Shown: positions 16,699-16,918 of the stretch, one piece after another
Numbering within the stretch: the stretch's first letter is position 1
Layout of the letters: the number at the start of each line of letters is the position of its first letter
Made by a program: the position numbers and the translations under genes
From: a virus
Direction: 5' to 3' (one strand)
Virus record (IMG/VR): IMGVR_UViG_3300035703_000439
Coordinates: 1-21,377 of that record
Length of the DNA: 21,377 nucleotides
Notes under the pieces: generated by a model
Databases searched by the model: none
Seen by the model: only the letters and a program-made list of their open reading frames with translations
What the model was told of the DNA's origin: nothing

Positions 16699-16727
16699 TT
16701 GACGATGATAAATAAAAGTACTATATT
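16699..16727 (+). promoter_or_regulatory. Promoter TTGACG-17-TATATT before the attenuator-like leader
   Basis: Good -35 and -10 with 17-nt spacing, but the spacer lacks the AAGACATCAT motif of the repeat family. It is upstream of a 32-codon frame and a terminator. Confidence 0.7.
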
Positions 16728-16759
16728 ACTAACATAAGCAAAGAGAAACGGAATCGAAT

Positions 16760-16858
16760 ATGAACCATTGTAGAAAACATATGTTTACCAATACCATTAA
16801 GCGTTTTGAACGCGAGTATCGTATTGGCGATTCTACTGGAGGTAAAACCGGGTGTTAA
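16760..16858 (+). CDS. Possible leader peptide, 32 aa
   Basis: ATG 16760 to TAA 16858, basic (R-K-H-M, K-R-F-E-R-E-Y-R) and ending G-K-T-G-C. The Shine-Dalgarno is weak. Its last codons overlap CTACTGGAGG (16833-16842), which can pair with the terminator 5' arm. Ribosomes on this frame would therefore decide which RNA fold forms. A free-standing small protein is the alternative. Confidence 0.5.
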   Translation: MNHCRKHMFTNTIKRFEREYRIGDSTGGKTGC

Positions 16859-16918
16859 CGTAAGATAACACAACTAGGTTTAAGTAACCCTCCAGTAGCA
16901 ATACTAGGAGGGTTTTTT
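16833..16918 (+). terminator. Terminator with competing antiterminator (attenuator)
   Basis: Terminator: AACCCTCC (16886-16893), AGTA-GCAA-TACT, GGAGGGTT (16907-16914), then six T. Antiterminator: CTACTGGAGG (16833-16842) pairs perfectly with CCTCCAGTAG (16889-16898), destroying the terminator stem. Between them GTGTTA/TAACAC forms a third hairpin. tRNA genes lie downstream. Confidence 0.75.

Follow-up and report, generated by a model that had tools for sequence, protein, structure and literature searches.

A predicted transcription attenuator ahead of a phage tRNA array, with a leader peptide that lists the amino acids of the tRNAs encoded downstream

Introduction

The leaders of the trp, his, ilv, and thr operons combine a short open reading frame (ORF) with test codons, an antiterminator arm that is freed when the ribosome stalls, and a competing intrinsic terminator; in attenuators, the outcome is usually decided while the RNA is being made. 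The pheST operon is attenuated through stalled translation of the pheM leader. T-box riboswitches provide feedback on tRNA charging through a choice between terminator and antiterminator, binding the tRNA directly, without translation. The reason for the many tRNA genes of large phages, and the way in which the time of their expression is decided, is to our knowledge an open question, and we found no earlier report of leader-peptide control of phage tRNA genes in the literature accessible to us, which for the most part did not extend to subscription journals.

The locus described here lies in a 21,377-base stretch (hereafter, the window) of the virus record IMGVR_UViG_3300035703_000439. All three anatomical elements of the trp, his, ilv, and thr attenuators are common to the phage leaders, whose function is predicted: a short ORF (16760-16858) lies directly 5' of an intrinsic terminator (16886-16918), an antiterminator that is mutually exclusive with this terminator has one arm overlapping the end of the ORF, and the test codons match what the genes under putative control produce. 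The phage leaders differ from these systems in that they are phage-borne, would control the tRNAs themselves, and list 5 to 19 amino acids (across the 30 leaders tested) rather than a run of one to three. As in pheST, attenuation of a translation-machinery operon would occur by stalled translation, which is predicted in the phage, but the pheM system involves one amino acid and controls a tRNA synthetase, not tRNA genes. With T-boxes, the phage leader would have in common the tRNA feedback through a terminator/antiterminator choice, whereas it has no T-box match and would operate by translation.

Results

Two tRNA arrays, each preceded by a strong terminator

The window is a jumbo-phage fragment, an assignment made because its RecA-like protein matches those of CBB, GAP32, Atu_ph07, Phosso, and others at 61-69% identity (among the matches listed). 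ARAGORN detected 43 tRNAs, every one of them on the plus strand, with mostly small reading frames around them; the tRNA calls used here are those of ARAGORN, and Met(CAT) may include initiator or Ile tRNAs. Only two strong intrinsic terminators are present on the plus strand of the 21-kb window, at 8340 and 16886, and each precedes a tRNA array (Table 1).

Table 1. Features of the two leaders, the tRNA arrays, and element B, in window coordinates
Feature	Position	Strand	Details
Leader ORF before array 1, 29 codons, MTKLVVTAQNTWSLGGNPSNDTMQVGRGC	8219-8308	+	Stop 34 nt before the 8340 terminator
Terminator ahead of tRNA array 1	8340-8372	+	T6; -13.3 kcal/mol
tRNA array 1	9118-15086	+	M N W N P S A A D V L G T C L M S Q Q P G T (ARAGORN)
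Promoter-like TTGACG-17-TATATT	16699-16727	+	10 of 12 consensus positions
Leader ORF before array 2, 32 codons, MNHCRKHMFTNTIKRFEREYRIGDSTGGKTGC	16760-16858	+	ATG 16760, stop TAA 16856-16858
Inventory codons 2-22 of the leader	16763-16825	+	Match tRNAs Met, Tyr, Phe, Lys, Glu, Ile, Thr, Cys, Arg, His
Antiterminator arm 2, CTACTGGAGG	16833-16842	+	End of ORF; perfect 10-bp complement of 16889-16898
Small hairpin GTGTTA/TAACAC	16852-16871	+	Around the stop codon, within the antiterminator loop (fold)
Intrinsic terminator	16886-16918	+	Hairpin 16886-16914, T6 16913-16918
Arm 3, CCTCCAGTAG	16889-16898	+	Inside the terminator hairpin
Element B, conserved H-type pseudoknot RNA	16927-17021	+	Head of array 2; 14 distinct copies aligned
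tRNA array 2	17137-20617	+	M Y F F K E I E E V T C K K R H (ARAGORN)

Several other features accompany the tRNA genes. A homing-endonuclease-like gene (13444-14085) and a PD-(D/E)XK nuclease gene (9795-10160) both lie inside array 1, and a PP-loop protein resembling TilS is encoded at 5800-6393, near a tRNA-Met(CAT) gene; we assume that it perhaps modifies a phage tRNA-Ile. The adjoining genes at 15128-15901 and 15902-16663 are paralogue-like, their products having motifs in common. For the former product, no relatives were found in viral contigs or named phages; for the latter, no true relative was found in viral contigs, the candidate L003 being spurious (a shared peptide word in an unrelated protein). 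No relatives were found of the protein at 12684-13274. A 117-nt tRNA match with two T-arm-like segments (18433-18549) looks like fused tRNAs or one with an insert, and tRNA-like elements with long closing stems occur among the tRNAs at 17029-17136, 18008-18160, 20259-20355, 20357-20460, and about 8510-8670. Several of the latter have a T-arm and lack a CCA end; they are possibly Y-RNA-like or decayed tRNAs. Sequences resembling the boxA motif of rRNA leaders (GCTCTTTGACAATTT) stand ahead of tRNA blocks at 8493-8510, 8765-8789, and 17930-17948, and an inverted copy (16671-16692) lies just 5' of the leader promoter, in the relative L133 as well. A repeated promoter-like sequence, TTGACA..TAAGACATCAT..TATATT/TACATT, is found at 2742, 3389, 3775, 8406, 17683, and 19383, ahead of small genes and tRNA blocks.

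Leaders of the two arrays

A sequence-only reading of the region had proposed a promoter, a 32-codon frame, and a 10-bp antiterminator with one arm inside the end of the peptide frame, all in front of a tRNA block. Each of these components was found, with tRNA genes starting 3' of the leader terminator. The same reading described an 8-bp terminator with T6; the T-run is as described, and the stem is longer, with 12 pairs and one bulge (-16.5 kcal/mol). A simple terminator scan did not report 16886-16918, probably because the stem has a bulge. None of 200 shuffles was as stable as the leader RNA fold (z = -3.95), and fewer than 1% of dinucleotide shuffles of the upstream stretch reach a complementarity as long as that of the 10-bp arm (p = 0.005, the floor of 200 shuffles; p = 0.007 with 300 shuffles of the last-ten-codon stretch). 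The relative L133 has the same promoter in the same place, and hairpins similar to GTGTTA/TAACAC are seen by eye near the stop in several relatives. A consensus scan for a promoter between the terminator and array 2 (16915-17137) detected none on the plus strand.

The leader peptide contains 10 of the 11 amino acids of array 2 (M Y F K E I V T C R H), with V missing, and, with the last 8 codons left out, its match is 0.83 to its own array compared with a mean of 0.56 to other arrays. Similar peptides precede tRNA arrays in L130, L133, L135/L137, L138/L139, and L145. The leader of array 1 contains all 13 amino acids of its array (M N W P S A D V L G T C Q). Arm 2 of this leader is weak, with 4 bp, and one of the promoter-like sites, that at 8406, lies between the 8340 terminator and the array; such a site, also present in L124, L125, and L128, would bypass the switch.

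The layout recurs in related and unrelated phages

Among 47 records reached by way of RecA relatives, a DNA search found one 92.5-kb contig (G032, L124) that matches at the terminator and just downstream. It carries a 50-codon ORF, ending AAG GAG GGT GAA CGA GAC TAG, 31 nt before a terminator (GCCCTCC..GGAGGGT-T6) that is followed by tRNAs. Pattern scans of IMG/VR retrieved 18 stretches with the downstream element and 25 with the terminator, the latter scan selecting GGAGG/CCTCC terminators without requiring arm 2. Many of these stretches have the same layout before tRNA arrays, namely, a short ORF whose final ~8 codons contain an arm and whose stop precedes a terminator by ~30 nt, with tRNAs following; several pattern matches fall in loci without tRNAs and resemble ordinary terminators. 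In the chosen loci, 54 T5 terminators have a tRNA no more than 1200 nt downstream, and for 46 of these terminators an ATG ORF at least 18 codons long stops 22-52 nt ahead of the terminator. Most of these loci are metagenomic, with arrays that are frequently truncated where the contig or locus stops.

The layout is shared by relatives of the window and by phages unrelated to it, e.g., Cellulophaga phages phi38:1 and phi40:1 and Calle_1-3. Phage phi38:1 has three such leaders; two of their stops coincide with the ends of its gp066 and gp070, whose only annotation is that of hypothetical proteins. A tblastn comparison of the leader peptide with named phages gave no match. The window is itself one of the large-phage tRNA arrays; in five other named phages, each examined in part, no leader was seen near the tRNAs (Cr30, RpAliso, DLP_6, phiWae14, and the first 18.5 kb of DSS3P8), and the leader is thus a trait of some lineages. 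Ribosome-binding signals are modest, with GGA, GAG, or AGG before the start in 16 of 36 leaders.

Arm 2 and the terminator arm covary

We scored 489 strong terminators from 1.68 Mb of loci and the window. An upstream arm at shuffle p < 0.05 accompanies 18 of the 53 terminators lying no more than 1000 nt upstream of a tRNA, compared with 9 of the 436 others, and in most arm-bearing tRNA-associated terminators the arm ends 38-44 nt before the terminator. For 36 non-redundant leaders, the longest run between arms 2 and 3 is 6.2, against 4.4 after shuffling (Wilcoxon p = 1.4e-7). The arms change on both sides, as in GGAGGG/CCCTCC, AGGGTCTA/TAGACCCT (L132), AGGGTCC/GGACCCT (L192), TGGAGC/GCTCCA (L140), TGTCTGG/CCAGACA (L177), and GGGGAGG/CCTCCCC (phi38:1). 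About a fifth of the leaders, the 8340 leader of the window among them, have no convincing arm in the expected place; the leaders with weak or missing arms include this one, L193, L194, L195, one L189 leader, and the third phi38:1 leader.

The leader peptide as an inventory of the downstream tRNAs

Leaders were picked by layout alone, i.e., the ORF length and distance to a T5 terminator given above; the 46 qualifying leaders were reduced to 36 without near-duplicates, of which 30 have at least 5 downstream amino-acid types. The match score is the fraction of leader residues that belong to the downstream tRNA set, with the last 8 codons left out. Across the 30 leaders, the match to the own array is 0.729 compared with 0.534 for re-paired arrays (sd 0.026; 0 of 20,000), and only the coding frame shows it: read in frames +1 and +2, the same DNA gives z of 0.0 and -1.5. 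Leaders that are related do not count as independent; when each of the 17 peptide clusters contributes one leader, a step that removes kinship only in part, the median z is 5.9, and all 300 draws reach the floor p (0.001). Across six phage lineages with 2-3 arrays, leaders match their own array at a mean of 0.79 and the sibling array at 0.19, in 13 of 13 cases, with two of the six comparisons taking the two leaders from closely related records. Every encoded amino acid is present in 18 of the 30 leaders, and mean coverage of the encoded amino acids is 0.941 compared with 0.800 after permutation (0 of 20,000). For example, leader 1 of phi38:1, MKTIMNIATDIRTKGVKLLGRSRVL, stands before tRNAs K I G M D T V R, and its third leader, ..MNVTLLHQEPLEQLRLPSRVPYYGIDELS, before P E Q H L R; the L276 leader, MFATSYSYCYYGSSSSSVSYGYESEEGSMGGKV, is followed by tRNAs E S S Y ? 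E Y Y E Y G G S C S S G E C. The codon-box match is weak for the split families Leu, Arg, and Ser (43 of 67), and some leaders match poorly overall (L192, 0.21; L132, 0.25; L197, 0.41; L176, 0.42; L140, 0.50).

The held-out scan required only three arms (GGAGG, CCTCC, GGAGGNTTTTTT) and a T-run. It yielded 77 new viral loci, in 56 of which the match lies at most 1250 nt upstream of a tRNA; a leader ORF is present in 53 of these 56 compared with 7 of the 21 others. In cellular genomes, 2 of 121 three-arm matches were near a tRNA, neither with an ORF (among the matches listed). Twenty held-out leaders, in 11 clusters, are dissimilar to the discovery set, and for these clusters the own-array match is 0.596 versus 0.403 permuted (z 5.1; 0 of 50,000), with a minimum of either 3 or 4 amino-acid types giving the same result (at least 5 in the discovery set). 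A smaller run (65 of the 77 loci, 8 clusters) gave 0.591 versus 0.445 (0 of 20,000), with the null frames again null and the same positional profile. Poor matches occur here as well (L274, 0.21; L230, 0.33; L205, 0.39; L258, 0.43).

The inventory occupies the codons at which a stall would free arm 2

The match is positional. In codons 9-24 before the stop it is 0.73-0.80, against a background of about 0.53; codons 1-8 before the stop, which hold arm 2, have no excess (0.55 and 0.49 versus 0.51 and 0.52), and codons 25-32 have little (0.61 and 0.54). The array-2 leader was folded with a stalled ribosome, whose footprint was assumed to extend ~15 nt to either side of the P site. In the folding model, an RNA ending before the 3' arm of the terminator forms the antiterminator with a probability of 0.48-0.98 when the P site is at codons 2-22, of 0.0 when it is at codons 23-32, and of 0.84 without a ribosome. 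According to the model, therefore, the inventory zone coincides with the zone where a stall frees arm 2, so that a shortage of any listed tRNA should open the array. In the full-length leader RNA, the modelled terminator wins at equilibrium in all stall states (0.77-0.97); hence, the switch, if real, must be kinetic and decided during transcription.

A conserved pseudoknot RNA at the head of array 2

In the window and several relatives, element B follows the terminator directly; elsewhere it comes after a promoter-like site. Its 14 distinct sequences have AAGTGGAAATGCGGAACGAGACTGC..CCACTATAAACAA..ACTC..AATGGGCG in common, and the element occurs in the window, L112, L125, L127, L128, L132-L134, L136, L140, L145, L207, L223, L252, and L262. 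By eye, pairing is kept in stem 1 (AGTGG/CCACT, GGTGG/CCACC, CAAGG/CCTTG) and in stem 2 (GAGT/ACTC, CGGTA/TACCG, CAGAC/GTCTG, GAAC/GTTC, GGGA/TCCC, CGATC/GATCG), the second stem being weak in L112. Rfam covariance models gave no match to the leader or element B at 16664-17136 (16600-20720 scanned, E up to 2), and blastn of element B against named phages returned nothing convincing. Our guess is that it could be an antitermination or processing element heading a long non-coding operon.

Discussion

The attenuator layout put forward in the sequence-only reading is borne out by the same anatomy before tRNA arrays in many phage contigs, by the joint change of arm 2 and the terminator arm, and by a leader frame that lists the amino acids of the downstream tRNAs. 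This inventory, which was absent from that reading, gives the position of the ribosome its meaning. Judging from the sequences, it is very probable that a transcription attenuator controls the phage tRNA array and that what it tests is the array's own tRNAs, and the cluster is probably switched on only when its own tRNAs run short. RNA polymerase would start at the leader promoter, and a ribosome would translate the 32-codon leader, codons 2-22 of which call for tRNAs encoded downstream. Were any listed tRNA scarce, the ribosome would stall within these codons and leave arm 2 free to pair with arm 3 before the terminator is complete, and the polymerase would enter the array. Were all of them plentiful, the ribosome at the stop would cover arm 2 and the terminator would form, such that the product tRNAs would feed back on their own synthesis. 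We infer leader translation, stalling, and the direction of the response. In many leaders, GGAGGG lies ~7 nt before the last sense codon; this would correspond to Shine-Dalgarno spacing, and the motif may in addition keep the ribosome on arm 2 during termination.

An ordinary small phage gene with a terminator, chance complementarity, and a separate promoter for the tRNAs would fit the promoter-like sites between terminator and array in some loci, as well as the bare annotation of phi38:1 gp066 and gp070. However, the arms covary, the distance from stop to terminator is nearly constant, the peptide content tracks the downstream array and not its sibling, and the pattern lies near tRNAs far more often in viral than in cellular sequences (among the matches listed), and we rejected this reading as very improbable. 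It is scarcely credible that the leader RNA binds tRNA directly, in the manner of a T-box, with the ORF as a by-product. Although the array makes tRNAs and tRNA-sensing riboswitches exist, the match is found only in the frame of the ORF and the leader contains no T-box or other Rfam cis-regulator (for the T-box, none in the window at the gathering score and none in 16600-20720 at E up to 2); this reading was likewise rejected.

Two further alternatives retain the translated leader. The sign of the switch could be the opposite, with efficient translation to the stop causing readthrough and stalling causing termination. We read the sign from the anatomy only, and the equilibrium preference of the modelled full-length RNA for the terminator, whatever the stall state, would suit this possibility; yet the final 8 codons contain arm 2, which a ribosome at the stop would cover given the assumed footprint, and the modelled antiterminator is lost when codons 23-32 are occupied, and we set the opposite sign aside as deserving little credence. 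Alternatively, the leader might sense the overall translation rate or ribosome supply, its composition merely following phage codon use, and the modelled antiterminator does form without a ribosome, so that any drop in translation would open the array. Against this, leaders of the same lineage differ, each fitting its own array, and the L276 leader is rich in Ser, Tyr, Gly, and Glu before tRNAs for Ser, Tyr, Glu, Gly, and Cys; we regard a general sensor of translation as unlikely.

If the leaders do test the tRNAs of their arrays, one tentative extension, which we consider possible rather than probable, is that they act as multi-input alarms which, by naming all array tRNAs in a single short peptide, detect the loss of any one of them, with element B helping the polymerase through the long non-coding operon. 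The loss of tRNAs, e.g., through host anticodon nucleases or host-tRNA decay, would then lead to transcription of the matching replacement set. Should the attenuation reading be true, tRNA arrays would answer a shortage of the very tRNAs that they encode, a directly testable answer to why and when large phages use them. Leader-peptide attenuation would extend from amino-acid synthesis to tRNAs, and from one to three inputs to many, and the sequence of a leader would become a readable prediction of the tRNAs that a phage expects to lack.
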